From Promicromonospora sp. MEB111 (GTDB taxonomy: Bacteria > Actinomycetota > Actinomycetes > Actinomycetales > Cellulomonadaceae): a stretch of DNA of 64,000 nt. The stretch lies in the NCBI RefSeq assembly GCF_030209445.1, contig NZ_JARVSD010000011.1, positions 186,001 to 250,000 on the forward strand, read 5' to 3'. The position numbers and the translations under genes were made by a program. Each line of letters opens with the position of its first letter. The stretch's first letter is position 1. The notes beneath the pieces were generated by a model, which worked only from the letters and a program-made list of their open reading frames with translations, made no database searches and was not told where the DNA came from. Below are positions 5,001 through 28,650 of the stretch, piece by piece.

Positions 5001-5384
5001 GGCGGGCAGGTCCAGGGTATGCAGGTTGTCGAGGAACGCGGTCCCCCAGGTCTGCTGGAATCCTTGGACTGGGCTGCTCATCCCGACAGACTTCGCCAGG
5101 AACGGCCAGAAGGTGTTCGAGGCGTAGTGGTCGGTCGCCGCCCCCGTCGTCGCGAGAACATGGACCGCCGGCCAGCGCTGGAGGATCCGGCGATGGTCCC
5201 GCGGCGCAGCGCGCAGATAGAGCTTGCCTAGAACGCCGAGGGCCTGCTGCCTGAACTCCGGCTTGATTCTGTCCAGTGCTTCGGCCACCAGCGAGACGTG
5301 CGACAGCCGCTTGCTCCAGCTCTCCTCCCGGATGTCCAGCAGCTCACGGGAGGAGACCGTCTTACGCCCTTCCGCCATCGACAT
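2055..5384 (-). CDS. Large unknown protein of the DUF1156/DUF499/helicase operon (1109 aa)
   Basis: No domain is recognised with confidence. The N-terminal 250 residues look alpha-helical and contain an aromatic-rich stretch near 66-100 (RWPAVHVLATTG, then NTFWPFLA). The middle (about 270-800) looks rich in beta strands, with many short hydrophobic strands and hydrophilic turns, and the last 250 residues are again helical. There is no Walker motif, signal peptide or membrane segment. It lies between the DUF499 ATPase (2 bases between the genes) and the helicase (overlapping stop and start), so it is probably a structural or target-recognition partner in the same complex. That role is inferred from position only. 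Start choice: the ATG at 5384 directly follows the upstream stop codon. Large unknown partners are common in defence operons, but no homology is claimed. Confidence 0.8.
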   Translation of the reverse strand: MSMAEGRKTVSSRELLDIREESWSKRLSHVSLVAEALDRIKPEFRQQALGVLGKLYLRAAPRDHRRILQRWPAVHVLATTGAATDHYASNTFWPFLAKSVGMSSPVQGFQQTWGTAFLDNLHTLDLPAFEDSDDAGTRYVGRILMHSGMPTSCLPIYFELVSRRRAGIAGLSPEAFVSWASAQAGRGALHNVDKPVARFLQYGGEFAVDVTGRVFDLLDAVAGGGDGTDVALPERFAAVAQDLQRKGRVARAARGSTSSVASAADQQPRLVLDPFGFGVVLRLPSASSVSDRATTWIVDADGTRQRVKANIVPPGLDEAPPTDVPLPRPVRLVSAALTDHEDLTATVDVVDDADPLLAFDENGELRSTAVPLPGRPVWFLFPGTPDDLVVTGTRNVRTESPLPPGWAGWCLLLVDLEGAQSVSVADTGSPRAVRNYASARIQISDPVAGVRTTLGRPVHAHLPSITLPEELRGAEWEVSLLAADRLAVARWRSSDGGNPDEIWDRIDRPLVGSFTLQVRGPWGRGTSRAFDVVEGLRATSTPTWRWFDAGGLQPAKVMLRADDGVALARDTLDLPSVARVTHVRAGARDRWLTLVVGPPHMTVAYQAAGSSIAPSIRPLQLSQEGLRSDPGTLVLDVGQGAEPRLHFLTAGGVQQVVEPGAGRNGMYQFNLARLTDTLATHPHGRLALDPEGGLVVGHVRPQRLCSLIRPMAEGLELVDSVDVEGLTAIVYATTAPWRPPVSLPVEGGRAELPEELRNAGPLLVTVRIEDPWVPAEVPEWPGPGDSRLVEIGGHVTSDQADLTALSAYLADEGPEPDDVADLEAVWTTRGLAERLGIGARATAVRTVLDRILRSRPREALLSVTESRAPGEMVPSFIVQSGLAWADLANAHEDEPLVWNVRNAVPATLLAAADGRWSDEEVEAAIALCSSEVTTLLTGADPAPQAGLLDQSAVLFDGLPSAARDAMVRQMGLVPKGLLSLDSRVAAGMAFVERRRDGRLSWLVKNAHDLLAESRRFLTLLADPVASASVFARTPRDADGGWRVVPAISLTYAFAARHAARGHTMGVTWLSGRRKSTWTAIAEVAPELVTVDLILAELLVSSTTTDRTEA

Positions 5385-5386
5385 CG

Positions 5387-8300
5387 CTACCTCTCCTCGA
5401 AGCCCTTCTGCTCAAGCCCGAGCACGTTGGCGTTCTCGCTGACAGTGCGGACGGTGCTCTCCGAGAAGCCGCCGGGGTTCTGCGCTTCGATCTCGACGGT
5501 GATCCGCAGCGACGTTCCTTCCGCAGCAGCCAGCGCGCCCAGGATCTCCTCGCGTAGCACGTTCCAGTCCTTGACGTAGGAGACCGGGTCGAGCGTCTTG
5601 GAACCGAAGAACCGGCGCTTCGGCTGGTCCCGCGGTGCGAGCTGCGCGCCGCCTGGGCCGGTGGTGACCCGGCCGTCGCTGTTGTCGGCCGCGGGTTCGT
5701 TCTCGGGATCGGCGACTGGCTGCCGGTCGCCCGCGCGCTGTGTGATGGCCCGGTCCGGCCGCACGAGCAGCCACGTGTCTGGTACCGACGGAGGCTCCGG
5801 CACGTCGCCGGGGAGCCAGAGGTCGAGGTACCGCCCGCTCGCGTCGTCGTACCCAGAGGCCAGGGCGAAGCCCTCCGCCTGCCAGACCAGGGAGCTGCCG
5901 ACCGCCAGCACTGCCTGCTCCAGAACCTCGCGGCGGGGGAGCCGCTGCAGGTACGGGTACTGGGTGTACCACGTCCACAGAGTCCCGAACGCGACGTGCC
6001 CGTCCGCCCAGGCCGAGGCGAGCGGTCCATCCAGGGCGATCCGGACCAGCGCGGTCCCGTACAGGTCGGCGAGCTTGCCCACGCTCTTGAGCTTGGCGGT
6101 GACCCGCTCGGCCATCGAGGTCGGGCCGTCGGTGAGCCGGTCGAACGACAGCGTGACCTTCGCCCCCGGCTGCCCCACCGGGGTCAGCAGGGCCGTGTAC
6201 GCCGCCCGGAGCCGAGCCTCGACCATGACGTCCAGGTCCGCCGCGCGCTTGATCGCCTGATTCTTCTGCTGCAGGGACAGGCCGAGCTCCTCGGCGCGCT
6301 CGACGACGTACCGCCAGCCCAGCCCTTCGCGCACCGCGTTCTCCAGGTCGCCGTAGCGGCCGCGGTCGGCAGCTAGGAAGACCACCTGGTTCCGCCGCTG
6401 CCGCTGGCCGGATCCGGCCCGCGTGAGGGTCTCCTCGGCGAACTCCGTGGCTTGGGACGCGTCCTTCGCCCAGGTGCGCCGCGGGTGGACGAGGACGAGC
6501 CGGAGTGCGTCACCGTCGGGCACGTCGCCGGCGTCCTCCGGTGCGGCATGCAACGTGCCGAACTGGCCCTTGGCTTTGCTGTTCTCCTGGCGGAGCCGCG
6601 TGACGATCTCCGCGTACACGTCCTCCTCCGAGTATCCGGCGGCCTTCTCCGCCGCCAGACGGGTCGACGACGCCGCGGTGTCGTACCAGGACCGGTCGCC
6701 ATCCTCGTAGAAGTACGTCGCCCGGGTCGACAGGAGTTCCCGGGCGTCGCCCAGGTGGTTCATCACGTCGCCGGGGACGGCCGCACCGAGCCGTAGCCGG
6801 CGGATGTCGACGCCGACGTGCTGCGTGCGCAGTGTTGGCACAGTCGCCATGAACACCGTCCGGGCGATCCGACGGGTCAGGTGCCGGGATCCGAATGCGG
6901 GCCGCTCGCCGTCGATCACCACGGGAGTGGAGCCCGGGCCGTCCACGTCTTTGTCGATGATGGGGCGCCAGTTGTCGTCCAGGTAGTGGGTGATCTCCGA
7001 GTACACGTCCGACGACGAGACTGGCACCACGCCAGGCGTGATCAGCGGCGCGGTGTCCCCGGCGTTCCACAGGGCCGAGATCACCTGGCTCATCAGCCGC
7101 AGCACGCCGCGGGTGCGCTGGAACTTCGGCAAGGCCGACCAGTCCTCGTAGAGCCGGTCGAATAGCTCGGGGTGGATGGGGTAGGCCGCCTTGATCCGGG
7201 CTTCGTAGGCGCCGTTGGTGACCTCCTTGGGGAAGAACCCGTGGTTGTCCTGGTAGAACTTCACGTACTGCTTGGCCACGGCCGCGATGTCCGCGAGGGC
7301 CGCCGCATCGGGCTGCTGGAAGAGGCGCCTGCGGACGATCTCGAAGGACTCCAGGCCAGTCGCGGGGCGCCAGTCGTCGGCGTTGCGGCCGATGACCTGC
7401 TGCAGCATCTCCAAGGCCACACGACCCTTGGGCCCGCCGACCTCCAGCGCGGACCCACCGCCGCCGTTATCGATGGACTCCGAGTCGGGAATCGAGACCA
7501 CGAGCATCACGCCCGGCGTGGACTTTGCGAGCTCGGTGAGGTGCTGGGCGAACGTGAACTGACCCTCGAAGGTACCGCCCGGCAGCGGCGCAGGCGCATC
7601 GACGAGCAGGCGGGCGTAGGCTACCCACTCGTCGACCAGGATCAGGATCCGCTCGCCACCGTCGACGATCTCGCGGACCAGCTCGTCGAGCACTGTGCCG
7701 GGCGGGGTGCCGTTGGCGTCCGCCTCGGCGACGCGTGCATAGGCGGCCTGGCCGCCGCCCGGGGCGCCGGCCTCACCGAGCTGCCAGGCGAGCTCACCCC
7801 ACAGGGTGCGGATCGTCGTCCCGTCCGGCTTGGTCGCCGCCTGACCGGGAGACAGGCGGGTCCCGACTAGAGTCACACGCCGCACACGCAGCGCGGCCAG
7901 CGGGTCCGGCTCGTCGGTCGCAGCTGTCAGCACGTGCCCGACGACGTCCTGGGCGCCGGCGGGCAGGGACCGCGCCTCGATCCCGGAGAACAGGTGGAAC
8001 AGCGCGAGCATTGAGTGCGTCTTGCCGCCACCGAACTGCGTCTGCAGGTTGACGACCGGGGAGGCGCCGCCGTCCCCGGAGAGGCGGCGCAGGGCCCGCT
8101 CGAGCAGGTCCTGCAGGCCGGAGGTGATGAAGGTTCGCGCGAAAAACTCCCGCGGGTCGGCGTACTCCGGCGACGTAGACTGCCCGGTCGCGACCTGGTG
8201 GAGGTCCGCCGCGAACTCTGCGGTGGAGAACTGGCCCTTCATGACGTCGGGGTGCGGGACGACGACGTCACGCCACGGCTTGACCGTGACGCCCGCCAGC

Positions 8301-8788
8301 GTGCCGGCGACGGCGATCGGGGCGACCTTTGAGGCGCGGTTGCGGGCCTGCTTTTCGTACACCTCGCGCTGGTGCTCTGAGCGTAGGGTCGCGACGGCAT
8401 CGGCCTGGTCGGCCGCGCCGATGGCGATCAGGAGGCGTTCGATTGTGTCCAGGGCCCGGTAGGTGTCGTCCGAGGAGAACTTCTCGCCGTGGTGCGCGCG
8501 GTTGGCGGTGTCGCGGAGCTCGGTCGCCAGGGCCGACTGAGGGCGCTCCAGATCGTCCTTAAAGACCTGCCACCGCTCGGTCACGACGCGGAGGAGGACG
8601 CGGACGTCGTCCTTGGTGAAGATTTTGGCGGTGCCAAACTTCGCGTTCTCGGCCGCGGACCACGCCTCCAGCCAGTCCGTCCCGGCTGGCGCGTGCATCG
8701 CCATGCGCATCTCGACCCACGGGAGGATCCCCTCCTGCAGGATGTCGAGGCCGCGCAGTACCTTCTCGTTGTTCGTCAGGGTGACCAT
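5387..8788 (-). CDS. DUF499 P-loop ATPase with Swt1/HEPN-like N-terminal domain (1133 aa)
   Basis: An AAA-like ATPase of the DUF499 family. Residues 1-130 are a helical domain resembling Swt1-type HEPN modules, with a candidate R-x(4-6)-H motif (RDTANRAHH) near 91-99. Walker A (FGGGKTHSML) is near residue 254 and Walker B (ILILVDEWVAYA) near 380. As known family context, DUF499 proteins occur beside DUF1156 methylases and helicases in predicted anti-phage loci, and that is the arrangement here: the methylase ends one base before this ATG. Earlier in-frame ATGs overlap the methylase gene, but MVTLTNNEKV gives the family-like N-terminus, so 8788 was chosen. Likely role: ATP-dependent switch or translocase in modification-dependent defence; RNase activity of the HEPN part is inference only. 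Confidence 0.88.
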   Translation of the reverse strand: MVTLTNNEKVLRGLDILQEGILPWVEMRMAMHAPAGTDWLEAWSAAENAKFGTAKIFTKDDVRVLLRVVTERWQVFKDDLERPQSALATELRDTANRAHHGEKFSSDDTYRALDTIERLLIAIGAADQADAVATLRSEHQREVYEKQARNRASKVAPIAVAGTLAGVTVKPWRDVVVPHPDVMKGQFSTAEFAADLHQVATGQSTSPEYADPREFFARTFITSGLQDLLERALRRLSGDGGASPVVNLQTQFGGGKTHSMLALFHLFSGIEARSLPAGAQDVVGHVLTAATDEPDPLAALRVRRVTLVGTRLSPGQAATKPDGTTIRTLWGELAWQLGEAGAPGGGQAAYARVAEADANGTPPGTVLDELVREIVDGGERILILVDEWVAYARLLVDAPAPLPGGTFEGQFTFAQHLTELAKSTPGVMLVVSIPDSESIDNGGGGSALEVGGPKGRVALEMLQQVIGRNADDWRPATGLESFEIVRRRLFQQPDAAALADIAAVAKQYVKFYQDNHGFFPKEVTNGAYEARIKAAYPIHPELFDRLYEDWSALPKFQRTRGVLRLMSQVISALWNAGDTAPLITPGVVPVSSSDVYSEITHYLDDNWRPIIDKDVDGPGSTPVVIDGERPAFGSRHLTRRIARTVFMATVPTLRTQHVGVDIRRLRLGAAVPGDVMNHLGDARELLSTRATYFYEDGDRSWYDTAASSTRLAAEKAAGYSEEDVYAEIVTRLRQENSKAKGQFGTLHAAPEDAGDVPDGDALRLVLVHPRRTWAKDASQATEFAEETLTRAGSGQRQRRNQVVFLAADRGRYGDLENAVREGLGWRYVVERAEELGLSLQQKNQAIKRAADLDVMVEARLRAAYTALLTPVGQPGAKVTLSFDRLTDGPTSMAERVTAKLKSVGKLADLYGTALVRIALDGPLASAWADGHVAFGTLWTWYTQYPYLQRLPRREVLEQAVLAVGSSLVWQAEGFALASGYDDASGRYLDLWLPGDVPEPPSVPDTWLLVRPDRAITQRAGDRQPVADPENEPAADNSDGRVTTGPGGAQLAPRDQPKRRFFGSKTLDPVSYVKDWNVLREEILGALAAAEGTSLRITVEIEAQNPGGFSESTVRTVSENANVLGLEQKGFEER

Positions 8789-8789
8789 G

Positions 8790-11633
8790 TCAGAAGGTCT
8801 CCTCTGCAACGGTGTCGAAGTCGAAGCCGTCCTGGACGGCGGGCTTCGGGAGGTTCTGGGCGGTGGCGGCGACCTCGGCCCAGGCGCCGCCGAGTCCGTT
8901 GAACAGGCCGGCGGTGGCGGCGTCTTTGGTTTCCATGAGCTCGTAGAGTCGCAGGGCGAGGCGCTGGGCGTCGTCAAGGGAGACCTTGATCCTGCCCGAC
9001 GACGAAGCACCGGTCGCTTCGCCCGTAAGGACTGCCATGAGGCGGGCTGCGGCCTCGCGGCCTTCGGTGGCGTAGGCACGCGCAAGGTGGCAGGTGGCCT
9101 CCCAGACGGAGTTGCGGTCATCGCGGGCCGGGTCCCAGGACGGGTCGAGGTCGAGGGGCTTAATAAGGGCGACCTTGCCGCCGCCAGAGGTCAGGATGCC
9201 GCCTCGGGCGATTCCGTCTACGGACAGGCCGAGGGGGACAGCCAGGGATTCGGCATCGCCATAGGGGCGGGTGGCCCAGCCGTAGGACTTGTACCAGTCG
9301 AGGCAGAAGCGAGTGTCCGGGTCGACGTCGGCGTCCTGTTCGGTCTCGATTGCGTCGAAGGTGGCGTTGATCAGGGCCAGGGCGGTCTTGACGGGCATGC
9401 GCGTGCCGTCGGCCTCCAGAACACGGGAGTAGCGGGAGTAGACGGCCATGCCCGGCCCGAGGACGGTCTGGCGCAGATCGGCCGGGGCGATCGCGCCTTC
9501 ACGGATGCGGGGGAGAGCCTCTTCGAGTTCTTCCCGGAGCGCGACGAGGAAGCCGGTGCGGTCCGCGGCGGCGGCGGTCTCGGGGCGAGGGCGTAGTGCA
9601 AGGACGATGGACGAAGCGAGAGCGTTCGACCCGACGTCGCGCATCCGTCCGGCACGTTCGGAGCGCACAGGCCAGGTGGCGGTGATGGTCCAACCTTCGC
9701 GGATCATGCCATCGAGGAAGGTGGACCAGCCGGTGCTCGCTACGCCCTCGGACTCCAGCTCTTTCTGCTTGAAGGCGTAGAAGACAGTGATCGGGTAGTC
9801 CGGCGTTGCGGACTGACGGGCGCGGCCGAACACGTGCTCGAAGCCCGTCTCAAAGAACTTCTCCGCCTGGTCCTTGCCGCCGTGGCGGTAGGGGTCAGCA
9901 ACGAGCTCCTCGACCTTGGGGACGAGCATCGTGCCGAATAGGTTGGGGTGGATCTGGCGGAGTGATCGGCGGAGCCAGACGTAAAAGAAGTCGCTGAGGT
10001 CGGAGTAGCCGATGTTGTCGTAATAGGGCGGGTCTGTGGCGACAAGTACTCCGGAGAAATCGCGTGCCGCCGCATCTAGCTGATGAACCTGCCCGTGAGT
10101 GGCTGGCGTAATGCGATCAAGTGTCGCGGCGATGCCTGGAATCGTGTTCTCGAAGTCGCCAGCGGTGCCAGAAAGCGGGTTGGCTTCGGCGTAGTCCCAG
10201 ACCATTGGGAGAGCCTGCCGCGCGAAGGTTGACCGCGTTGCGCCGGTGCCATGCGATGAACGCCAAGAGACAAGTGACGAGTGATCGTCGGTTGTGTTGG
10301 ATGCTGCGATACCGAGATAGGTTCCGACTGCGTCGGCGTAGGCTTCAACGCCCGTGCCACCGTCCGGCAGGCGAGCTCCGCTCATGAGGCCTGCGGTAGC
10401 CGCGTCCTTGAGGACCTGCTCGCGCACCTCGGACACCAGGTCGCTGAACGTGGTCAACGCGGTGAGCTGCCGACTTGTAAACAGGTCAGCCCACCTGGTG
10501 AGGCCATAGGCCTGAACGCGGAAGCCGAGAGCGGCCGCAGGCAATGAGCCCGCAGGTATTGCGTCTGGAACGAGGATCTCAGCGGCCTTCACGTGCTCCT
10601 CGGTAGGCTCGACATAAATCCGCTGCCGCTTTCCCTCCGCGACCGTGGCCATTAGTTGAGCCCCAAGGCGAACAGCCTTGCCTTCGGCACGAATCGCCTT
10701 GAGTTCGACCGCTGTATCGCACGACACACAGACCGCACCGCTGCCGTCGACGGTTCCGCCATTCGCTGCCGTGGGCGCCTGCTCGACGTCATGCCCGATC
10801 CGGAAGACGACCCGCCTACCAGCTGGCACCGAGGCGTCGTCGACCACCTCGGGGACGACGTAGGTCTCCTTGCCCTTCTTCTTCGCGAGCCACCACGAGC
10901 GGACCAGCGGCATCTCGATCCCGCACGCCGGGTTGGGGCACGTGACGGTCCGGGCCCAGATCCACGCGATGACCGTTGCCTTCTCCCCCGACGGTAGCGT
11001 CGCCTTCGGGTACAGGTGTCCGATGCGCTCCTCGGCGCGGTCGCGCATCCATGCGCCGTACCGGCGCACGTCCTCGGCAAGGCCTGTCGCGCGCGGCCAG
11101 TCACCGAGTCGAGACTCCGCCGCGCCAGGGAACACCGGCGGGCGTCCCGCGAACTTCGGCGGGATCTCGATCAGTGCCTTGTTGATCAGCACCGCGACCG
11201 GGTTGAGGTCCGAGGCGTGCGCCTCCAGCCCCAGGCGCTGGGCCTCCAGCGGGATCGTGCCGCCTCCGGCGAACGGGTCCAGAATCGCTGGCGGCTTCCC
11301 TCCGGTCGATCTCAGAATCTCTGCGCGCGCCTCGGCGTAGAGCCGCTCGTCGTTGATGTTCTCCCACTTGACCAGACGCCGGATGATCCCGTGCAGCCGT
11401 TCGCGCTCGGCCTTCTGCTCCTCGGGCGACAGGGACTCGTCCGACGACGGGTCGTCTACGAGCTGGGCGAACAGCACCGCCCGTGCCGCCGCGAGCGGCC
11501 GCCGTGCCCACCACAGGTGCAGCGTCGACGGGTGCCCGTATCGGATCGACTTCTCCCTCGCCGACTCGGCGTTGATCTCCTCCAGCGGGAGCGAGACCTC
11601 GATCAGCTTGCGGCGGGGTGGGAGCGTCGTCAC
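8790..11633 (-). CDS. DUF1156-domain DNA adenine methylase (about 947 aa)
   Basis: A large amino-methyltransferase of the DUF1156 family. The N-terminus KLIEVSLPLEEINAESAREK followed by HLWWARRPLAAARAV is the DUF1156 signature. The SAM-binding motif DPFAGGGTIPLE lies near residue 118 and the catalytic DPPYYDN near 532. A zinc ribbon (CPNPAC near 230, CVSC near 300) is inserted between them. Predicted reaction: transfer of a methyl group from SAM to adenine N6 (or cytosine N4) in DNA. The start is GTG at 11633. Longer in-frame readings up to 11915 exist, but that extension is of poor quality and shares sequence with a divergent reading frame. It is the first gene of the leftward operon and probably marks self DNA for the DUF499, unknown and helicase partners. 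Confidence 0.9.
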   Translation of the reverse strand: MTTLPPRRKLIEVSLPLEEINAESAREKSIRYGHPSTLHLWWARRPLAAARAVLFAQLVDDPSSDESLSPEEQKAERERLHGIIRRLVKWENINDERLYAEARAEILRSTGGKPPAILDPFAGGGTIPLEAQRLGLEAHASDLNPVAVLINKALIEIPPKFAGRPPVFPGAAESRLGDWPRATGLAEDVRRYGAWMRDRAEERIGHLYPKATLPSGEKATVIAWIWARTVTCPNPACGIEMPLVRSWWLAKKKGKETYVVPEVVDDASVPAGRRVVFRIGHDVEQAPTAANGGTVDGSGAVCVSCDTAVELKAIRAEGKAVRLGAQLMATVAEGKRQRIYVEPTEEHVKAAEILVPDAIPAGSLPAAALGFRVQAYGLTRWADLFTSRQLTALTTFSDLVSEVREQVLKDAATAGLMSGARLPDGGTGVEAYADAVGTYLGIAASNTTDDHSSLVSWRSSHGTGATRSTFARQALPMVWDYAEANPLSGTAGDFENTIPGIAATLDRITPATHGQVHQLDAAARDFSGVLVATDPPYYDNIGYSDLSDFFYVWLRRSLRQIHPNLFGTMLVPKVEELVADPYRHGGKDQAEKFFETGFEHVFGRARQSATPDYPITVFYAFKQKELESEGVASTGWSTFLDGMIREGWTITATWPVRSERAGRMRDVGSNALASSIVLALRPRPETAAAADRTGFLVALREELEEALPRIREGAIAPADLRQTVLGPGMAVYSRYSRVLEADGTRMPVKTALALINATFDAIETEQDADVDPDTRFCLDWYKSYGWATRPYGDAESLAVPLGLSVDGIARGGILTSGGGKVALIKPLDLDPSWDPARDDRNSVWEATCHLARAYATEGREAAARLMAVLTGEATGASSSGRIKVSLDDAQRLALRLYELMETKDAATAGLFNGLGGAWAEVAATAQNLPKPAVQDGFDFDTVAEETF

Positions 11634-11640
11634 CTGCCCC

Positions 11641-11646
11641 AATATA
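11641..11646 (-). promoter_or_regulatory. Candidate -10 element for a leaderless methylase transcript
   Basis: On the minus strand TATATT sits 7 nt before the GTG of the methylase, in an otherwise very GC-rich stretch, and no Shine-Dalgarno sequence precedes the GTG. Spacing of this kind would start the transcript at or next to the start codon, as in leaderless actinobacterial mRNAs. No good -35 box is seen at 16-18 nt upstream, so a regulator may be needed. Sequence inspection only. Confidence 0.4.
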
Positions 11647-11910
11647 TGGCCGGGGCCACTGGCGGGCCGTTCGCCGTCGGGTGAGGTGCGAGGTGAAACC
11701 TGAGGAGTTCCGGCCCGCCTGCGGGAATCTTGCAGCGCGGCGCCTGACGAGGCAAGGTTGGTGGCTGTGCCTGTCGTCGCTCCGCCTGCTCCAGCAAGCT
11801 CGGCCCCGGGGCGCACCTTGGCCGCCGTCCTGCTCTCGCCGCCAACCACATCGGGGAACCGTACGCGCGCTGCCGTGGGTCGGGCAGCCTCAGCACTGGG
11901 CTTCGGCATG

Positions 11911-12360
11911 GTCATGATCGGGAACCTCCTCTCTCTTCCGACGACGTCGTCTGGCGACGTCCGGCAGGTTGGTCGCGAATCCAGAACCTGGCTCGCATCT
12001 AGGGAACCGTTGGCAACGACGATCGCTGCCGCTGATGAGTTGCTCGTAGCCTGGGGGCGTCTTCACGATCTCGGCCCGGCGCGTGTGCACGCCCAGGTCC
12101 AGATCGCCTGGCTCGCTACGGTCGCGAAGGCTGCAGGAATCGACGAGGTCTGGAGCGTCGGCCCTGACCAACGGCACCCATCCCGCTGGCATCAGTACAC
12201 GGCGGACAAGTACGGCCGTACATCGGGTGGGACGTCCGAGCAACGTCTCCACGAAGTGTTGGTGTCCCTGCCCTGGGAAGACGTGATTGTGAAGGTCTCG
12301 AGCCGGAGACGGGTTGCCCACGAGACCGCAGATAGATCGCCCCGTCCAAGAACTACCTGA
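11911..12360 (+). CDS. Small hypothetical protein divergent from the methylase operon
   Basis: An open frame of about 149 codons from ATG, also open upstream to 11758. Codon use is compatible with coding but less biased than in its neighbours. The protein is soluble, with a helical centre (AWLATVAKAAGIDEVW) and a charged C-terminus, and no family is recognised. It diverges from the methylase operon and lies about 310 bases before the response regulator, so it could be a small regulator or a decayed gene. The opposite strand is also open across this interval, which lowers confidence that either frame is real. Confidence 0.35.
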   Translation, partial: VMIGNLLSLPTTSSGDVRQVGRESRTWLASREPLATTIAAADELLVAWGRLHDLGPARVHAQVQIAWLATVAKAAGIDEVWSVGPDQRHPSRWHQYTADKYGRTSGGTSEQRLHEVLVSLPWEDVIVKVSSRRRVAHETADRSPRPRTT

Positions 12361-12670
12361 CGGCCCAACGCCGATCAGCGTCAACGACCACGAATCTCGG
12401 CCCGGCCGTGGCTGGGAGGGGTGCTGGGACATGGTGGCGCTCCGAGTAACTCTTGGGGAATGGTGCGGCGTCGCGTTGATCATGGCCCGGCACGGCCCGC
12501 GATGTCTGGGGCACCTTGGCCCCAGCGGGCCGCGGACCGTGCCGGTGGTTCAACTCTCGCCCGGTAAGTACTCGCGACACATCGCCTGAACGGGTACCTT
12601 CCCGCGGAAAGATCCCTCGATCGGGTGAGGCAACGGCAGGAGCCGCCGCCGTACGCCTACGCTGGCACCC
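12361..12670. other. Gene-free stretch upstream of the response regulator
   Basis: About 310 bases with no convincing gene. It must contain the promoter for the response-regulator and helicase-kinase genes. No clear -35/-10 pair, long palindrome or terminator was found by eye. Confidence 0.4.
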
Positions 12671-13336
12671 GTGACGAGAGTGCTCATCGTGGACGACGAC
12701 GCCCTGGTCCGGCAGCACATCCGGGGGATCCTGACCGACCATGGCCTCGAGATCGTTGCCGAGGCAGAGGACGGCGACGAGGTCCTGCCCGCGATCGTCA
12801 GGCACCGGCCCGACGTCGTCCTGATGGATCTCGGGATGCAGCGGGTGGGTGGCGTCGAGGCGATCCGCCGGGTCCGGGCCTTGCCGGGAGGGCCGCCGTG
12901 CGTAGCCTTGACGACATTCGAGGACGCGGTCATGATCAAGCGAGCGCTCGAGGCAGGGGCGGCCGGGTACCTCGTGAAGCACGATGCCCCCGAGGCCTGG
13001 GTGAGCTACCTCCACGACGTGCTCGCGGGCGGCGGCGCGCTCAGCCCGACCGCCGCAAAGCGGCTCATCGACGATTACTCGTCGTCAGGTAGCTCCGGGG
13101 CAGACAAAGCCGCCGAGGCTCGCGCCACCCTCGAGACGCTCACCGCCGCGGAACGCGACGTCATCGCGAACATCGCGGGCCGGACCAACGCCGAGATCGG
13201 GGTGGACCTGTTCATCTCCGAGCACACCGTCAAGTCCCATGTGAGCCATGCCCTGGCCAAGCTGGGGCTCCGACGCCGTACCGAGCTCGCGGCGCTTGCG
13301 GAACTGGCCGGGATCAGCATCCCACCACAGCCGTGA
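12671..13336 (+). CDS. NarL/FixJ-family response regulator (LuxR-type HTH), 221 aa
   Basis: Two-domain DNA-binding response regulator. The receiver domain covers residues 1-118, with the acidic pocket DDD at 8-10, the phospho-acceptor Asp53 (LMDLGM) and the conserved Lys in GYLVKHD. A LuxR/NarL helix-turn-helix covers about 150-212, with LTAAERDVIANIAGRTNAEI and the recognition helix in SEHTVKSHVSHAL. The usual Pro after MDxxM is replaced by Gln. The start is GTG, giving MTRVLIVDDD. The helicase-kinase gene begins 21 bases after its stop on the same strand, so that kinase domain is very probably its phosphodonor. Likely targets are promoters of the surrounding island, for example the methylase operon or the pPIWI-RE operon; this is inference. 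Confidence 0.93.
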   Translation: MTRVLIVDDDALVRQHIRGILTDHGLEIVAEAEDGDEVLPAIVRHRPDVVLMDLGMQRVGGVEAIRRVRALPGGPPCVALTTFEDAVMIKRALEAGAAGYLVKHDAPEAWVSYLHDVLAGGGALSPTAAKRLIDDYSSSGSSGADKAAEARATLETLTAAERDVIANIAGRTNAEIGVDLFISEHTVKSHVSHALAKLGLRRRTELAALAELAGISIPPQP

Positions 13337-13357
13337 CCTGCCGGATAACCTTGGTCG

Positions 13358-16264
13358 ATGCCTTACGTCATCATTCCGTCCGACGTCCCGACGCTCGACG
13401 GAGATGTCGCCGGCAAGGCGTGGAAATTCATCGAGAAGCTCCGCCAGGACGACACCGCCCCGGGCTTGCGGATCAAGTCCCTCAAGGGCGCCGCTGATCG
13501 CCGTATCCGGACGGGCCGGGTCAACGACAACTACCGCGCGGTCCTGGTCAAGCTCACGGGGTCCGACGAGGAGCCGCGCTACATCTTCCTCGGCATCTTC
13601 AAGCACGACGTCGCCAACGAGCACGCCGCGAACCTGGTGTTCCGGCGCAACCCGCAGACCAGCGCCGCCGAGGTGGTCCGGGTCGACCTGGGCCAGGCCG
13701 TGCCGCTCGGCGGCGCGGAGGAAGCGATCGAGGAGGCGCCGACGGGGGAGCCGCAGGCCGCTGGCACCGGCGCGACGGCCCTGCCGCTGCTGCAGGCCGC
13801 CGGGGTGACGTTCGACCACATCATCGGCCTGGGGATCGACGCGAGGACCGCCTACGACGCGATCAACGCGGCGGACGAAGAGAGCCTGCTGACCATTGCG
13901 TACGGTACGTCGTCGCCGTACGAGGGGGACGCACTTCTTCTCCTCGCTGGCGGGGCGAGCGTGGACAAGGTTCGGGAGCTCTACGAGCTGAACGCACCGG
14001 AGGCCAGCGCCGGCGAGGACACCGACGACGACCTCATCGCGGCACTCGACCATCCGGTCGCGCGGATGCAGTTCGCCTATCTCACGGACGACGTCGCGCT
14101 CCGGGAGGCGATCGAGCACGAGGACTTCGCTCTCTGGCGGGTCTTCCTCCACCCGGAGCAGCGCGCGTACGTCGCGGCGTCGACGAAGGGGCCCGTTCGG
14201 CTCTCGGGCGGGGCTGGAACGGGCAAGACTGTCGTGCTGCTGCACCGGGCGCGGCACCTGCACCGGCGGAATCCCGCTGCGCGGATCTTCTTGACGACGT
14301 ACACCACGACCCTCGCCACTGCTCTCAGGTCCCAGCTCTTGCTGCTGGATCCGAACATCGTCGTCGCGAAGGAGCCGGGAGACCCGGGGGTCTACGTCGG
14401 TACGCTCGACGCTGCGGCGCGTCGTCTCGTCGTCCGCGCGGAGGATCACGGGCTCGATGTGCGGCGAGCCGCGACAAGTCTTCTCGGCCGGGTGCGAGGG
14501 GAGATTGTCCCGTCCACGGACCCTGGCGTGTGGGAGGCGGTGCTGCGGGGGCGCGGCCAGGACCTGCCCGCACAGTTGCGGACGCCAGCGTTCCTCGACG
14601 CGGAGTACTCGGCCGTCATCGTCCCGCAGCGGATCGCGACGCGTGACGAGTACCTGCGCGTGCGGCGTCCCGGCCGCGGCATCGCGCTTGGGCGGGCACA
14701 GCGAAACGCCGTTTGGGAGGTGATCGAGGCTTACCGGGAGATGGCTGCGGGCGTCGGGACCACGAACTTCGACGAGAAGGCCATGACCGTCGCCATGGCC
14801 CTGGACACCGCTGCGGAGAACGGTGGTTCCCGCGTGGCAGACCACGTCCTCGTCGACGAGGCGCAGGATCTCGGGCCGGCTCACCTGCATCTGCTCCGGG
14901 CCCTGGTAGCTCGCGATGCCGACGACTTGCTGCTCGCTGAGGACTCTCAGCAGCGGATCTACGCTCCCCGGACGGTGCTGTCCCGGTACGGCATCTTCGT
15001 CACCGGCCGGTCCCGACGCCTCCAGCTCAACTACCGGACCACGTCGCAGAATCTCGGCTATGCCACGGCGGTCCTGGCGGGTCATCCGACGGTGGACCTG
15101 GAGGACAGCGTCGTCGACGACTCCGGCCTTCGGTCGGCGCGTTCCGGGCCTCCGCCGACGGTTCTCGGCTGCGAGACGCTGGAGGCGGCGTATGACGCCG
15201 TAGCTCGCGAGATTGACTGTTGGTTGTCCGCAGGGGTCGCCCACGAGACGATCGCCGTGCTTGTCTGGTCCGGCAACGAGGCGGTGACACTCACCAGGCA
15301 GCTGGCTGGGCGCGGCATCCCCGCCCAGCACGTTCGCAACCAGGACACGCCAGGGGCTGACCGGGTCGTCGTCATGACCAGGCACAGGTCCAAGGGCATG
15401 GAGTTCCGGCACGTCGTCGTCTTCGGAGCTACCGCCGAGTCCACGAGGGTTGCCGGCCGGGTCGTCGTCGGTGATCCGGCGGAGGCATTGCAGCGCGAGC
15501 GATCGCTACTGTACGTGGCGACCACTCGGGCGCGCGAGCGTGTGGTGGTCGTGTGGCACGGTACCCCGAGCGAGCTGCTGCCGGAGGCACGACCCAAGAG
15601 GGCCGCCTTCGTCGGGCAGGTCTCGGTCCAGAACCAAGTCATGCACGAGGACCTGGCCCGGGAGATGCACGACGGCGTCGGCTACGCCTTCACCGAGATC
15701 ATCACAGTGATCACCCAGCTCGAGCGCGAGGTCAGGGACAACCCCGCAGTCCAGGAGAAGCTCGCCCGGCTCCGGACGGTCGTCCGGAGGGGCCATGCTG
15801 AGCTCCGGACGGTGCTGGAAGCTCTGCGGACCGGGGCTGAGGGCCTGGCCGACGTCTCGTTCGACGACCTGGGTGGGCTGTTGCAGCGGTTGCGGAACCA
15901 GGGATTCCGGATCACGAGCAGTTTCGACGTCGCGGATGGCGAGACCGCAAGCCGGATCCTGACGCGGACCTGTTACCGCATCGTGCAGGAGTCGGTCTCA
16001 AATGCCTTGGCGCACGCCGAGAGTCAGCCGATCGACATCGTGCTGCGTGGTGCCCCCGGCACCGGGGTCACGATCGTCGTGAACAACCCGCTGCCGGTCG
16101 GAGCCTCAGGTCCGCAGACCGAAGGGCGCCCGCACTCAGGGATCGCCGGGATGAGGGACCGGGCGGAGAGCCTGGGCGGTACCTTCTCCGCGGGGGCGGT
16201 CAGCGGCAGGTTCGTCGTTGACGCCAGGATCCCGTGGGAACGGCGCGAGGGAGGCGCGGGCTGA
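13358..16264 (+). CDS. RelE/ParE-like - UvrD-type helicase - NarL-type histidine kinase fusion (968 aa)
   Basis: One uninterrupted reading frame carries three modules. Residues 1-100 resemble the RelE/ParE fold that precedes some UvrD-like helicases (IKSLKGAADRRIRTGRVND, then YRAVL). Residues 270-740 are a superfamily 1 helicase: Walker A SGGAGTGKT near 283, Walker B LVDEAQD near 498, Q-x-x-R (EDSQQRIY) near 530, LNYRTT near 557, the RSKGMEF motif near 677 and YVATTRAR near 720. Residues 760-962 are a HisKA_3/HATPase kinase: phospho-acceptor His771 in LAREMHDGVG, N-box RIVQESVSNALAHA near 874-887 and the glycine box SGIAGMRDRAESLGG near 927. There is no membrane segment, so the helicase occupies the place of a sensor domain. 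The cognate regulator lies 21 bases upstream. Predicted role: cytosolic detection of unusual or invading DNA coupled to phosphorelay. Each domain call is firm; the signalling role is inferred. Confidence 0.92.
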   Translation: MPYVIIPSDVPTLDGDVAGKAWKFIEKLRQDDTAPGLRIKSLKGAADRRIRTGRVNDNYRAVLVKLTGSDEEPRYIFLGIFKHDVANEHAANLVFRRNPQTSAAEVVRVDLGQAVPLGGAEEAIEEAPTGEPQAAGTGATALPLLQAAGVTFDHIIGLGIDARTAYDAINAADEESLLTIAYGTSSPYEGDALLLLAGGASVDKVRELYELNAPEASAGEDTDDDLIAALDHPVARMQFAYLTDDVALREAIEHEDFALWRVFLHPEQRAYVAASTKGPVRLSGGAGTGKTVVLLHRARHLHRRNPAARIFLTTYTTTLATALRSQLLLLDPNIVVAKEPGDPGVYVGTLDAAARRLVVRAEDHGLDVRRAATSLLGRVRGEIVPSTDPGVWEAVLRGRGQDLPAQLRTPAFLDAEYSAVIVPQRIATRDEYLRVRRPGRGIALGRAQRNAVWEVIEAYREMAAGVGTTNFDEKAMTVAMALDTAAENGGSRVADHVLVDEAQDLGPAHLHLLRALVARDADDLLLAEDSQQRIYAPRTVLSRYGIFVTGRSRRLQLNYRTTSQNLGYATAVLAGHPTVDLEDSVVDDSGLRSARSGPPPTVLGCETLEAAYDAVAREIDCWLSAGVAHETIAVLVWSGNEAVTLTRQLAGRGIPAQHVRNQDTPGADRVVVMTRHRSKGMEFRHVVVFGATAESTRVAGRVVVGDPAEALQRERSLLYVATTRARERVVVVWHGTPSELLPEARPKRAAFVGQVSVQNQVMHEDLAREMHDGVGYAFTEIITVITQLEREVRDNPAVQEKLARLRTVVRRGHAELRTVLEALRTGAEGLADVSFDDLGGLLQRLRNQGFRITSSFDVADGETASRILTRTCYRIVQESVSNALAHAESQPIDIVLRGAPGTGVTIVVNNPLPVGASGPQTEGRPHSGIAGMRDRAESLGGTFSAGAVSGRFVVDARIPWERREGGAG

Positions 16265-19144: not shown

Positions 19145-22100
19145 TCAGTCCCTTTCGTTGATCTCAGTCAGGGCGTCCCAAAAGGGCTGGAGCAGGGCGG
19201 CGGCGACGGTCTTGTCGGCCGGTGTCGTCGTGGTGTCCTGGGGGTCGAAGTACGGGGTGAGGATCTGCCGGAAGCGGACCAGGAGGGAGGTCCTGGGGGT
19301 GTCCTGCAGCTGATCCGGCCTGGCACCCACGGGGACGAAGGCCGCGTCGCAGAATCGCACGCGGGCCTCGACGCCGCCGCGGACGAGTCGCCCGATGACC
19401 TGCCACATCACGACGAGCTGGTCCCAGGCGAAGGAGTCCTTCTCGGCATCGCCGAGTCCGCTCCAAGCAACCTTGCGAGTCAAGTAGCGGTACCACTTGC
19501 GGCGTGCCTCCTGTCGGAACTCGCCGGCGGCGGCATCGATGGTCGGGAACCTACCGGGGAGCCAGAAGAATTCGCCGGTGAAGGGCCGGGTGTAGCGCAT
19601 CGCCCAGTCGTTGATGGCATGGATGGCGAGGTTGATGTCGTCGGGCTTGTCGTGCGGGCGCACAAGGAAGTACACGGCGCCGATCGCCGCGGTCCCGTCG
19701 TCGAGGACGATGTTGTGCCCGCGTTCCACGGCGAGAAGCGGGGCGACGAGGATCTCACTGTCCAGGGCCGCGTAGTTCGCGACGTCTCCGCGACGCAAGG
19801 AGTACCAGACGTCGTCCTGGTCGGCGTCGTCGGCGATGAGGAGCGTGACCTTGTCCTTCCACCGCTTCTGGTCGTGAAGGAACTGGGCCACGGTCCGGGC
19901 CTCGTCGTAGGAGCCGGTCAGCAGGAGGAGCCGACGGCGGTCGGCAGGCAGGTCCTCGAGCTCGATCTCCAGCGGGCTCAGAGACCCGGCCAAGGTGGGG
20001 TCGGGGACCGCGAGCCCGGTGAGAAGGGCCCTCATTGCGGCGGGCCGGTCCTGCTGGCGGGTCCCGGAGATCCAGATCGCGTCACCGTTCTGGTCGTACT
20101 GAAGGTTCAGCGAGAACGACGTCCTGCGCACCGCGTCGACATTCTTCTGCGGCGGCCGGAGGATCGCGTTCACGGGGAGGCCCAGGTGGTAGCGGGTAGA
20201 GGTGCCGGCCCAACTGGTCCCCGACATGAGCATGACGTGCGGACCAGGGACGTCCTCGGACAGGCCCAGCTCCGGAAGACGGTTCAGCAGGTCGCGGCCG
20301 ACGCCGTTGCAGTGGAAGAACCGCAGCGACCCGCTGTGGGCGGGTGGGCCAGGCCGCTCCTCGGTGAGCTGGAAACCCAGGATGTTCCCCATCGGGGACT
20401 CCGCCATCACGGCCTCGAAGTCCTTGGGCGGGCGGCGGGTCAGTGTGTTGGCGGCGGACTCGAGGCTGAGCTCGGCCTCGACGCTGGGCCACATGTTCGT
20501 CAAGACGGTGAGCTGGTCAGAGAGGGCGGCCAGGAGCATCGCCAGGGCGAACCGCTTCCGGTCACGCTCCGGGTCCGACGACTGGCGGAACGCCCCCCGG
20601 GTGAGCTCGGTGAGGCAGGCGTCGAGCCGGGCCACGTCCTCGCCGGACGTGAGCAGCATGTTGGTCAGGTCGACGAGCTCGGCGACCAGCCTGCCACTTT
20701 CGGTGGACCGGTCGAGCACGGGCTGGATCGGGTTGTCGCGGAAGGCGTCAAGCACGCTCTCGAAGAACTTGGCGTCGGCTTCCTGCTCGGCAGTCCGGTT
20801 CTCCTCGGGACCCGCCCAACGGCTGTAGAGACGCTGGTGCAGCGTCACGGCGGAGAAGTAGTTCGTGCCGACCCACCGACGCAGGTCGCCGGAGGTGTTA
20901 AGCATCATGTAGATCCGATCGGCCGCGTGGTGCACGACGTCGAGCGAGCCGGTCCAGCGGGAGACGAACGTGTCGGTCAGCCCCTTGCGGCCCTGCGCCG
21001 TGAGCTGGCTGATCGTGTGGCGTTGCAGCCAGTCGATCCAGGATGACTCGTCCCCGTTGCCGCAGAGCGTTTCAGCCGGCGCGAACGCGGTGTCGAGCTG
21101 GGTCTGCACCCGGTCAGCTTCGTCAATGATGATGAGGTCGCTGCGGTCGGCTGCGGCCTCGAGGTAGCGCACGTTCTCGTCGGTCTGGTGACGAGGGACG
21201 CGGGCGTGCAGGAGCCCGGGCATGGTGGCGACCCATACCGGGGCGTCGAGCAGCTCGCGGGCCGCGCGATGGCGCGGGCACACGGACCATAGGGGGCAGC
21301 CGTGCGGCTTCTTCTCCGTGATCTTCTCCCGCGGTTCCCCGGGCTCGTCGGTCGCACTCTCCGGATTCAGCAGGTCGTCGTGAGACGGGGTGTGCACCGG
21401 CTGCAGCCGTTCGCAGGGGGCCTCGGCGATCCGGAGCTGCTCGACTCCCTCGTAATTGCGCAGAGCGTCGATCGGGCAGGCGCTGGACAGGTAGTTGAAG
21501 GCGGGGTCGGAGTGGGCGAGCATCGAGGCGGCTCCGGCAGAATGCTTGCGACGATGGAGCCGCTGGAGGTGACGCTCCCGGGTGGAGCGGCCGACGATGG
21601 GGGCTGCTGTGAGACTGCCGTGCTGCAGATTGTTGAACGTCGTGGTTGTCCTCAGGCTCTCGGCGACATCGCCCACCACGATCGTCACCTTGAGACCGAG
21701 CTCGACGACGCAGTGGTAGGTGAGCAGGTGCATGATCGTGCTCTTGCCGGCGCCCACCATGCCGACCAGGTGGAAGAGGCTGTCGATCGTCAGCTCCCAG
21801 TCGGCGGCGTGGTTGAACCCGTCGTCGCTGAATGCCGCCGGCCCGTCCAGAGAGGCCACGGACATCTCGACCTCGCCGAGGCTCTTCAGCCAGTGGCGCG
21901 GTTTAGCGTCCGGGTTGGCGGCTTCGGCGGCGTCCATAACGCGTGCTGCCTCACGCAGATCGCTCAGGCTCACGGTGATCGGCTCGCCCTTGCCGGCCTT
22001 ACTCAGCCGGAACGGCATCCGGGCAGGCTGGGGAAGGCCGGCCAGGGTGGCAGGGATCGTGACGCCATGCGTGTCACGACCTGTGCTGAACCTGTGCTCC

Positions 22101-22567
22101 CCGGCGCCGGCGATCGGAAGGGCCTTGCCCGGTGCCGGGTCCAGGCCCTCGAGGGCCCGCTCGTAGACATCGAACCGGTCCGGCGCCAGGGAAGGCCGCC
22201 GCGCTCTGGGCACCGCCTCCGCGCTGTCGAGGTCATAGCCACGGAAGTGCTGGTCCACGGCCAGGTACTGCTCGAGACGATGGGTCCACACGTACCTGCG
22301 GCGCAGGCCACTCAGGTAGTGGCGGGCCGTCCCGAGGCGCCGTCGCGTCTCCTCGGTCAGGTCCGGGACGAACGCCTGGGCATAGGGGAAGCCGCTAAGT
22401 AGGGGCCACAGGTCGATCGCCCGGGCTGCCGGGTCGACCTCGGCCAGCAGGTACAGGGCGAGCTCGACCTCGGCCAGCTCGGTTGGGCGGAGCTGGTCCG
22501 GCCGGTTCGTCGGCCAGCCGTGCAGGGCCTGGACTACAGGGCGGCTCCAGCCGCTGGTGCTACGCAT
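19145..22567 (-). CDS. DinG/XPD-type helicase of the pPIWI-RE island (1140 aa)
   Basis: Superfamily 2 helicase partner of the PIWI-RE protein. Residues 1-110 match the small N-terminal domain of this island's helicases (ELALYLLAEVDP, then RHYLSGLRRRYVWTHRL). Walker A (GMVGAGKSTIMH) is near residue 268 and the DEAD-like box (IIIDEADRVQ) near 477. Between them are spaced cysteines near 363, 384, 424 and 430 (including CPLWSVCP), placed like the Fe-S ligands of XPD/DinG helicases. The C-terminal RecA-like half ends with LVVMWQVIGRLVRGG, a typical motif VI. Predicted role: unwinding or R-loop formation for guide-target pairing. Its start overlaps the end of the endonuclease gene by 8 bases, so expression is probably coupled. 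Confidence 0.87.
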   Translation of the reverse strand: MRSTSGWSRPVVQALHGWPTNRPDQLRPTELAEVELALYLLAEVDPAARAIDLWPLLSGFPYAQAFVPDLTEETRRRLGTARHYLSGLRRRYVWTHRLEQYLAVDQHFRGYDLDSAEAVPRARRPSLAPDRFDVYERALEGLDPAPGKALPIAGAGEHRFSTGRDTHGVTIPATLAGLPQPARMPFRLSKAGKGEPITVSLSDLREAARVMDAAEAANPDAKPRHWLKSLGEVEMSVASLDGPAAFSDDGFNHAADWELTIDSLFHLVGMVGAGKSTIMHLLTYHCVVELGLKVTIVVGDVAESLRTTTTFNNLQHGSLTAAPIVGRSTRERHLQRLHRRKHSAGAASMLAHSDPAFNYLSSACPIDALRNYEGVEQLRIAEAPCERLQPVHTPSHDDLLNPESATDEPGEPREKITEKKPHGCPLWSVCPRHRAARELLDAPVWVATMPGLLHARVPRHQTDENVRYLEAAADRSDLIIIDEADRVQTQLDTAFAPAETLCGNGDESSWIDWLQRHTISQLTAQGRKGLTDTFVSRWTGSLDVVHHAADRIYMMLNTSGDLRRWVGTNYFSAVTLHQRLYSRWAGPEENRTAEQEADAKFFESVLDAFRDNPIQPVLDRSTESGRLVAELVDLTNMLLTSGEDVARLDACLTELTRGAFRQSSDPERDRKRFALAMLLAALSDQLTVLTNMWPSVEAELSLESAANTLTRRPPKDFEAVMAESPMGNILGFQLTEERPGPPAHSGSLRFFHCNGVGRDLLNRLPELGLSEDVPGPHVMLMSGTSWAGTSTRYHLGLPVNAILRPPQKNVDAVRRTSFSLNLQYDQNGDAIWISGTRQQDRPAAMRALLTGLAVPDPTLAGSLSPLEIELEDLPADRRRLLLLTGSYDEARTVAQFLHDQKRWKDKVTLLIADDADQDDVWYSLRRGDVANYAALDSEILVAPLLAVERGHNIVLDDGTAAIGAVYFLVRPHDKPDDINLAIHAINDWAMRYTRPFTGEFFWLPGRFPTIDAAAGEFRQEARRKWYRYLTRKVAWSGLGDAEKDSFAWDQLVVMWQVIGRLVRGGVEARVRFCDAAFVPVGARPDQLQDTPRTSLLVRFRQILTPYFDPQDTTTTPADKTVAAALLQPFWDALTEINERD

Positions 22568-23672
22568 TCGGACCCTCCAGGGCGGTCGTCGAGGTGAGCT
22601 TCCGGTCGACCGCCCGGAGGAAGTCTTTCTGGAACGTCACCGAGAGCGAGTCGCTACTCCGTCCCGCGGACTGCCGGGCGTAGCGGAAGCTCTCGGCGTA
22701 CTGCTTGTTGGCGCTGCGGCGGTAGTCAGGAACGACGAGGAAACCGCGGTCGCGGGGCGGGGTAGAGGGAAGGCCGGCGAAGGTACGGCCCAGCACGCCG
22801 GGGTTGGCGTAGTCCTTGACGTCGACGGCCCAGCGGATCTTGTCGGGGAAGGTCACGAGCAGGTCGTAAGCGTCGTATCCGGGCCACATCTCGACCGCAA
22901 GTCCTCGTTTGCCCAGCGCGATCTCCAGGTCGATCTCGAACAGGCCGGGTCCGGTGACGAAGGTGCGCAACGGCAGGCCGAGCTGGAGAATCCCGCCTGG
23001 GACCGTCGCGTCGAGGTATCGACGAACCTTCACCGTCGTGGTCCTGCAACGGTCCAGGTCGCATTGCCAGCTGTCCCTGCCGACCGGTCGCAGGAGGCAG
23101 TGGCACCGTGCGCACTCGGCGTACTGCCTCTCCCGCCGCAGCCGTGGCGAAACCGGCAGATAGCACCGGTCCAGGAGGTCGGCGACGGGCAGCAGATCGA
23201 GCTCACCACGCTGGAGCACCAGCTCTGTCTGCGTCAGGGCTGGCCGAGTAATCAGCAGACGCCGGAACGCCACGTAGGACTCTGGGGAGTCGGCCTCCTG
23301 GCAGGCGCTGAGCGCCAGCTTGAGGATCTCGTTCTCGTACTTCTCACCGAACGGGTCTCGTCTGTTGTCTACGACCAGCTCGATGCACTCTTGGGTCGGG
23401 CTGAACGTGTCACCATGCAGCAGGACCGTCTCCGAGGTCGAGCCCGGAAGCCAGTCCTGGACGGGCCGGTCGGCGATGATCTCGATCATCTCGGGGACGC
23501 TCCCCGGCGTCCGAAAGTCGTCCTCGACGAGGGTGCGCAGTACGAAGTGGTTGTAGGCGCGCTGCACGACGTCGTCGTACGCGACCTTTCCAGGCACCTC
23601 ACGCTGGGCCAGCGTGCTCACAGCGGCCGCGAGGCCGGCGAGGAAGCTCGTCTCCTCCATCGCGTCAGGCAT
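22560..23672 (-). CDS. PD-(D/E)XK restriction-endonuclease-like protein of the pPIWI-RE island (370 aa)
   Basis: Third core gene of the PIWI-RE island. A zinc-ribbon-like segment (CARCHC, then CDLDRC) lies near residues 186-207. The C-terminal nuclease core reads YDLLVTFPDKIRWAVDVKDY near 268-287, a clear D-x(n)-D-x-K catalytic signature, and an upstream acidic residue in FEIDLEIAL probably completes the site. Predicted role: metal-dependent cleavage of DNA chosen by the PIWI-RE and helicase partners. The ATG at 23672 (MPDAMEETSF) overlaps the previous gene's stop; longer in-frame starts run into that gene and are unlikely. The order nuclease, helicase, PIWI-RE with overlaps or one-base gaps supports one transcript. 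Confidence 0.83.
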   Translation of the reverse strand: MPDAMEETSFLAGLAAAVSTLAQREVPGKVAYDDVVQRAYNHFVLRTLVEDDFRTPGSVPEMIEIIADRPVQDWLPGSTSETVLLHGDTFSPTQECIELVVDNRRDPFGEKYENEILKLALSACQEADSPESYVAFRRLLITRPALTQTELVLQRGELDLLPVADLLDRCYLPVSPRLRRERQYAECARCHCLLRPVGRDSWQCDLDRCRTTTVKVRRYLDATVPGGILQLGLPLRTFVTGPGLFEIDLEIALGKRGLAVEMWPGYDAYDLLVTFPDKIRWAVDVKDYANPGVLGRTFAGLPSTPPRDRGFLVVPDYRRSANKQYAESFRYARQSAGRSSDSLSVTFQKDFLRAVDRKLTSTTALEGPNA

Positions 23673-28536: not shown

Positions 28537-28650
28537 GCCGTCATGCTGGCACATGTGTCGTGAACAGTGTGGCAGTGCCCGGTCTTGCGACCCGCGAGGC
28601 GCACCTCACCCGCACATTCACCCCGCTCGCCGGCCAACGGCAAGTCCGCG

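Follow-up and report, generated by a model that had tools for sequence, protein, structure and literature searches.

How do large bacterial defence operons stay quiet, and how do they get switched on? A locus of Promicromonospora sp. MEB111 bears on this question. In the stretch analysed here (the window: 64,000 nt of contig NZ_JARVSD010000011.1, positions 186,001–250,000, from a genome of 6.23 Mb), one open reading frame (ORF) joins a UvrD-type helicase to a histidine kinase (HK) core, next to a response regulator (RR) gene and between two defence operons. An earlier note on this DNA had proposed that the pair forms a phosphorelay sensing DNA damage or invaders. We ask below whether the fusion is genuine, where its halves came from, and which genes RR may control.

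Domain structure of the fusion protein and its response regulator

The features at the centre of the locus are as follows.
12671–13336, + strand: RR of the NarL/LuxR type, 221 aa, phospho-acceptor Asp53
13358–16264, + strand: ArmD-like helicase/histidine kinase fusion, 968 aa, single frame
13358–13687, + strand: RelE/YoeB-fold domain, residues 1–110
14141–15592, + strand: UvrD-type superfamily 1 (SF1) helicase, residues 262–745
15650–16243, + strand: HisKA_3/HATPase kinase core, residues 765–962, H-box His771 codon at 15668

Domain searches and six intact copies confirmed the single 968-residue frame joining a helicase to a NarL-type kinase that had been read from the letters alone. The RR gene, with Pfam matches to Response_reg (1.5e-25) and GerE (1.1e-12), ends 21 bp before the fusion gene, also as described in the earlier note. 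The N-terminus, earlier called RelE/ParE-like, holds up as a fold (RelE/YoeB; 13 of its residues do not vary among 46 sequences). The helicase has the Walker A, DEAQD and C-terminal motifs and the UvrD fold of UvrD/Rep SF1A enzymes, and its motifs are invariant across 51 sequences. The kinase core matches HisKA_3 (5.6e-9, Pfam), while HATPase_c remained below the cut-off. His771, Asn882 of the N-box, and SG..GM of the G2 box were invariant in all six fusions, in agreement with the kinase core (His771, N-box and glycine box) of the earlier note. The Asp of the HATPase_c G1 box is absent, the fusion having Asn-Pro at residues 910–911. Loss of kinase function through the missing Asp was considered and rejected, since Asn occupies this position in all 24 standalone relatives of the kinase as well.

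The first two domains recall ArmD, the last of the four genes ArmA–ArmD, which is described in the available portions of a preprint as a UvrD helicase resembling GajB and having a RelE-like N-terminus (Bell et al. 2025, PMC12458937). According to the same portions, all four genes are required for ARMADA defence, and the Walker A substitution K266A in ArmD abolishes protection (PMC12458937). The fusion likewise joins a RelE-like domain to a UvrD/GajB-like helicase, and it clusters with helicases encoded directly after an ArmC-like gene. Its unfused relatives share both domains and look like ArmD, as judged by domains and gene order: a DruE/ArmC-like match lies beside the gene in 70 of 80 loci of a contig collection (weak pieces only in L099 and L134), and one unfused relative (G511) stands in the order ArmA-ArmB-(GmrSD)-ArmC-ArmD. 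The fusion differs from ArmD of ARMADA Type II in having a C-terminal histidine kinase and its own RR; the terms "histidine kinase" and "two-component" do not occur in the text of the ARMADA preprint (PMC12458937). The Type II order ArmA-ArmB-ArmC-ArmD is absent from the window, which has Hma and pPIWI-RE genes instead, and is found in G558 for an unfused copy. We class the fusion system as a two-component system with an ArmD-like input and not as an ARMADA system.

Distribution of the fusion and its unfused relatives

We searched sets of 221 family genomes (including the own genome), 394 class genomes, and 396 order genomes. The full fusion was found in six family genomes (the own genome, G510, Oerskovia rustica [G564], Myceligenerans pegani [G556], Promicromonospora citrea [G576], and G558), the five other copies being 54–59% identical to that of the window. 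The earlier note had counted homologues consistently lacking the kinase part as evidence against its reading; these six genomes keep it. Among the family matches listed, 20 further full-length loci are unfused and end at residues 732–752. Some match was obtained in 330 of the 394 class genomes, and among the matches listed only the own genome passes residue 756. In the order set, the fusions among the matches listed are those of the own genome and G558. Matches running to residue 832 (G623) and residue 763 (G685) were rejected as fusions, both being unfused ArmD-like genes. The contig collection gave no match to the single fusion protein as query; a 6-row alignment query found 122 relatives, and three of the best 80 are fused, namely those of O. 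rustica, M. pegani, and P. citrea. Twenty-seven plasmid records matched the fusion query, none reaching 80% query coverage, phages gave no match at E 1e-20, and viral contigs gave one weak helicase piece only.

Origin of the two halves

In a helicase tree of 62 rows (quick method, approximate likelihood-ratio test [aLRT] only), all six fusions fall into a single clade (aLRT 100) inside a group (99) with the unfused helicases of G602, G555, G562, G582, and G585, whose order is unsettled; G554 is next outside (85). PADLOC scans of three of these genomes found DISARM genes beside the unfused helicase in G562 (DrmD, DrmMI, and DrmA), G555 (DrmD), and G585 (DrmA and DrmB). In G602 and G582, a comparison of gene starts showed resemblance to those three. 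As an observation in its own right, the unfused ArmD-like helicases L080 (G562), L077 (G555), and L083 (G585) adjoin DISARM genes, lying divergent from DrmD in G562 and G555. Such a helicase is an apparent accessory to DISARM, not mentioned in the available portions of the literature.

The fused kinases also form one clade in a tree of 43 rows (ultrafast bootstrap/aLRT 99/97), nested in membrane NarL-type kinases; the standalone kinase of P. citrea, a fragment below the length limit, and the own paralogue L191 were left out. The nearest kinases belong to membrane NarL-type HK-RR pairs. Those of G586, G557, and G582 resemble the present pair in the kinase core (up to 52% identical), in RR (46–53%), and in having the same kind of palindrome upstream, whereas their input consists of 3–5 membrane helices (crude hydropathy count) in place of the helicase. 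The RR tree, which left out RRs covering fewer than 170 residues, places five island RRs (own, G510, G564, G556, and G558) in a clade with membrane-pair RRs of G586, G576, G557, and G556 (90/99, bootstrap not settled). The trees and the nested kinase core indicate that a defence helicase replaced a membrane sensor once. In two pairs of fusions, the ratio of nonsynonymous to synonymous substitution (dN/dS) was 0.26 and 0.14 in the kinase versus 0.83 and 0.67 in the linker, indicating that the kinase part is under purifying selection. The fusion thus has a single origin, and its copies have been kept under purifying selection.

Defence operons beside the fusion and mobility of the cassette

The survey of homologues and neighbouring genes suggested in the earlier note was run, and every fusion (6/6) was found to adjoin a large defence operon. 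In the window, the position between two defence operons was verified, with Hma genes on the left and a pPIWI-RE operon on the right. Hma genes also adjoin the fusion in G510. The neighbours in O. rustica are DISARM genes (DrmA and DrmB by PADLOC, with a TmtA-like/ResIII helicase gene first), and those in M. pegani and P. citrea are DISARM genes by similarity to O. rustica. In G558, the fusion adjoins ARMADA II, with ZorA on the other side; searches identified ArmC and an unfused ArmD there, and ArmA and ArmB were judged only from how their sequences begin. We also observed that the DISARM operons of O. rustica, M. pegani, and P. citrea (L061, L063, and L064) begin with a 1,600-aa protein having a TmtA-like N-terminal part and a ResIII helicase. 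The same loci hold a 590-aa UvrD helicase, and a C5-methylase gene lies nearby in O. rustica.

An RR of the island subfamily lies within 30 kb of the fusion in all six genomes. It directly adjoins the fusion in the window, G510, and O. rustica; the two genes lie on either side of the defence operon in M. pegani (12 kb apart) and G558 (29 kb apart); and in P. citrea RR stands beside a standalone membrane kinase, at a distance of 10 kb from the fusion. The island RR is the best RR match in four of the five other fusion genomes and the second-best in M. pegani. RR is very probably the partner of the fusion kinase. Between the 40-kb regions of G510 and O. rustica, a common block of 3,779 bp (90.3% identity) consists of the operator sites, RR, and the fusion, and in the rest only a 228-bp piece elsewhere aligns at E 1e-10. 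The neighbouring operons, Hma and DISARM, are thus unrelated, and the cassette is portable.

Operator-like arrays at the RR and pPIWI-RE promoters

Two operator-like arrays were found in the window.
12582–12628: two 16-bp palindromes (12582–12597 and 12613–12628), spacing 31 bp, position weight matrix (PWM) scores 12.5 and 12.0, array end 42 bp before the RR start codon
25499–25567: three palindromes (25499, 25521, and 25552), ca. 120–190 bp upstream of the first start codon of the pPIWI-RE operon (25377, − strand); 25521 and 25552 are the paired sites, and the third, 25499, is weaker

Enumeration of dyads in the intergenic regions of the six islands yielded CCCGA/TCGGG in three regions versus at most two in 20 shuffles. 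Among six such enumerations, only that of inverted 5-mers beat the single-base shuffles; inverted 4- and 6-mers and direct 4–6-mers did not. TCACCCGATCGGGTGA with at most three mismatches was present in 6/6 islands, against a background of 17 in 1.58 Mb. As a cleaner set, we used 24 standalone HK/RR loci, some of which are near copies. Palindromes resembling CCCGATCGGG (tandem core) lie upstream in 20 of these loci versus 3/24 coding controls; two other palindromes likewise reach 20/24 upstream regions, but with 9 and 14 in the coding controls. The commonest spacings there are 22–23 and 32 bp. The PWM was trained on these loci alone, with 48 instances chosen using the 10-mer found beforehand.

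Under a rule demanding paired sites, the window contains just two arrays, one at the promoter of RR and the fusion and the other ahead of the pPIWI-RE operon, against a background of two in 1.516 Mb (77 loci). In the whole genome, three sites have at most two mismatches, two of them being the window arrays and the third (C11:198058) being solitary. With at most three mismatches there are 42 sites, versus six for the reversed control; none of the 39 outside the window is a strict pair. A pair pattern fitted to both window arrays matched twice in the 6.23-Mb genome, at those two arrays. We noted separately that 8 of these 42 sites have an exact copy of TCACCCGTTCGCGTCA (e.g. C6:64691 and C9:147924); it may be a repeat or the site of another regulator.

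In other fusion genomes, strict arrays lie before the first DISARM gene (O. rustica), between DISARM and the fusion (P. citrea), and, in G558, at two places, one ca. 100 bp ahead of ArmA and one before the gene that precedes ArmC. Six of seven unfused ARMADA/DISARM stretches had no site above 8.5. Of the 14 regions with an unfused ArmD, two have strict arrays, namely G515 and G582, the latter at its standalone kinase. With arrays at the RR promoter and the pPIWI-RE operon and like layouts at DISARM and ARMADA genes elsewhere, the link to defence is stronger than the earlier note had made it. Judging from the positions of the arrays, RR quite probably acts at the pPIWI-RE promoter.

Several observations weigh against such control. 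The palindrome was first noticed in the fusion islands, and thresholds and spacings were chosen after inspection. Single sites are unspecific (11 window sites score at least 11 versus ca. 6 expected from a background of 89 per Mb), so that the pair rule alone discriminates. G510 has no strict array but three sites with a weak middle one, and the array of M. pegani falls just under the threshold (19.9 versus 20). HmaB has no array within ca. 900 bp of its start codon, and control of Hma thus rests on proximity. Among unfused regions, G602, the seventh of the ARMADA/DISARM stretches, has sites of 10.9 and 6.5 separated by 21 bp, which do not satisfy the pair rule, and the array in the ARMADA region of G515, ca. 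1.7 kb from ArmC, does satisfy it, an unexplained case. The island RRs do not form a separate clade of their own, and the position of RR beside a standalone membrane kinase in P. citrea makes cross-talk possible. Finally, pPIWI-RE was matched in only one of 220 family genomes (E <= 1e-40), the own one, the other 219 having no match, which leaves no second genome for comparing its control.

Proposed mechanism and alternative explanations

On balance, we lean towards a soluble two-component system that takes its input from an ArmD-like RelE-UvrD helicase derived from anti-phage defence and that controls the adjacent defence operons. The helicase is fairly likely to be the sensor of the fused kinase. 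It would load on DNA (or RNA) indicative of an invader or of damage, and an ATP-driven change of its state on this substrate would switch the fused HisKA_3 kinase dimer. Phosphate would then pass from His771 of the fusion to Asp53 of RR, which would bind the tandem palindromes at its own promoter and that of the pPIWI-RE operon and thereby adjust, most likely raise, defence expression. The portable RR-fusion cassette has been recruited beside Hma, DISARM, ARMADA II, and pPIWI-RE operons. Sensing of DNA damage or invaders is suggested by the defence role of ArmD (PMC12458937), and induction of defence by invader nucleic acid is a tentative extension. With similar reserve, we suggest that a nucleic-acid motor could be the sensory domain of a kinase, ArmD-like surveillance of invader DNA or RNA being turned into a phospho-signal that induces defence operons, and that the operator-RR-kinase cassette is traded among unrelated immune systems as an induction module.

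The fusion might instead serve chiefly as an effector subunit, like ArmD in ARMADA defence, with the helicase working in DISARM or Hma complexes, the kinase core regulating the helicase or being regulated by RR, and transcriptional control being secondary. In all three genomes scanned, the nearest unfused ArmD-like helicases stand next to DISARM genes and carry no kinase, and in G558 the fusion is the next gene after ArmC-ArmD. Nevertheless, kinase residues and a helix-turn-helix regulator have been retained together, arrays stand at defence promoters, and the cassette occurs beside unrelated operons, so we consider this unlikely. We find it still harder to credit a general regulator of DNA damage or stress whose location in defence islands is incidental. 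UvrD-type helicases are frequently repair enzymes, and NarL-type systems commonly sense stress; however, all six copies adjoin Hma, DISARM, or ARMADA genes, and the fitted pattern finds no further array in the own genome.

The RelE domain could also be the input, sensing ribosomes or RNA during phage translation shut-off, with the helicase a mere spacer or ATPase clock. Its fold and invariant residues agree with such a role, but the helicase motifs are equally invariant, and the Walker A motif of ArmD is essential for ARMADA defence according to the available portions of PMC12458937; we judge this very improbable. A chance fusion, an assembly error, or a pseudogene would fit the rarity of the fusion, with only the own genome reaching the kinase among the class matches listed, but six genomes carry it in one frame each under purifying selection. 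Pseudogene and assembly error were rejected on the six intact copies, the chance of this explanation is negligible, and the fusion is almost certainly real and conserved.

Relation to known systems

The preferred reading, a soluble two-component system with a helicase input, has partial parallels, given here from the available portions of the papers concerned. Two-component genes are reported with NxD-type McrBC systems (PMC11090510), which resemble the present case in having such genes in defence operons and differ in that no helicase-kinase fusion is mentioned in those portions. In BREX/BR loci, a Schlafen RNase carries a minimal histidine kinase and a winged helix-turn-helix as fused domains (PMC12839542); it shares a kinase-like domain on a defence protein, with Schlafen instead of a helicase and no RR or operator described in the portions available. 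Hachiman HamAB has a helicase sensing DNA damage, but its output is a nuclease and no phosphorelay is involved (PMC12278908). The terms "two-component" and "receiver" do not occur in the available text of the pPIWI-RE discovery paper (PMC3702460). In the open-access literature, most subscription papers lying outside this coverage, we found no fusion of a helicase with a histidine kinase, nor any case of pPIWI-RE, DISARM, or ARMADA being controlled by a two-component system.

The locus offers a concrete design, in which a defence helicase would be the sensor and a protein of two domains the regulator, with candidate operators mapped at pPIWI-RE and, elsewhere, near DISARM and ARMADA genes. In culturable actinomycetes, it allows a direct test of whether detection of invader nucleic acid induces restriction. 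If the reading is true, a kinase gated by an ATPase/helicase is a new kind of sensor, and bacteria may use a DNA motor as the sensor that controls immune genes.

Flanking operons of the window

The flanking genes, all on the − strand, are as follows.
1–11915: Hma-type operon, with HmaB (8790–11915) and HmaC (5387–9121, HEPN_Swt1 and DUF499)
2055–5384: unknown protein of the Hma-type operon
2055 leftwards past the window edge: YprA/DruE-like helicase, followed by HmaA
16324–19143: PprPIWI (pPIWI-RE protein)
19145–22567: PprDinG, DinG-type helicase
22560–23756: PprRE, pPIWI-RE restriction endonuclease (REase), ORF counted from the first possible start
23665–25377: PD-(D/E)XK (Cas4/RecB-like) nuclease (PDDEXK_1, 6.3e-16), apparent first gene of the pPIWI-RE operon

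On the left flank, HmaA, HmaB, and HmaC are all present, together with two extra genes. One encodes the YprA/DruE-like helicase of ca. 1,660 aa that spans the window edge (L174, own contig C31:168001–186100), and the other a 1,109-aa protein for which neither Pfam nor PADLOC gave a match within the limits applied. G510 has kept both, with 85% and 71% identity, respectively. From its gene content, the operon is possibly an Hma/Druantia hybrid.

On the right flank, the pPIWI-RE protein, the DinG-type helicase, and REase lie in one operon, constituting the three-gene island. The stop of the PD-(D/E)XK nuclease gene overlaps one candidate start of the REase gene, and the nuclease is possibly a fourth pPIWI-RE component. 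Adjoining this operon, positions 27298–28554 (− strand) encode a protein with AspBHI-N and Mrr_cat domains, which is likely a modification-dependent restriction enzyme.

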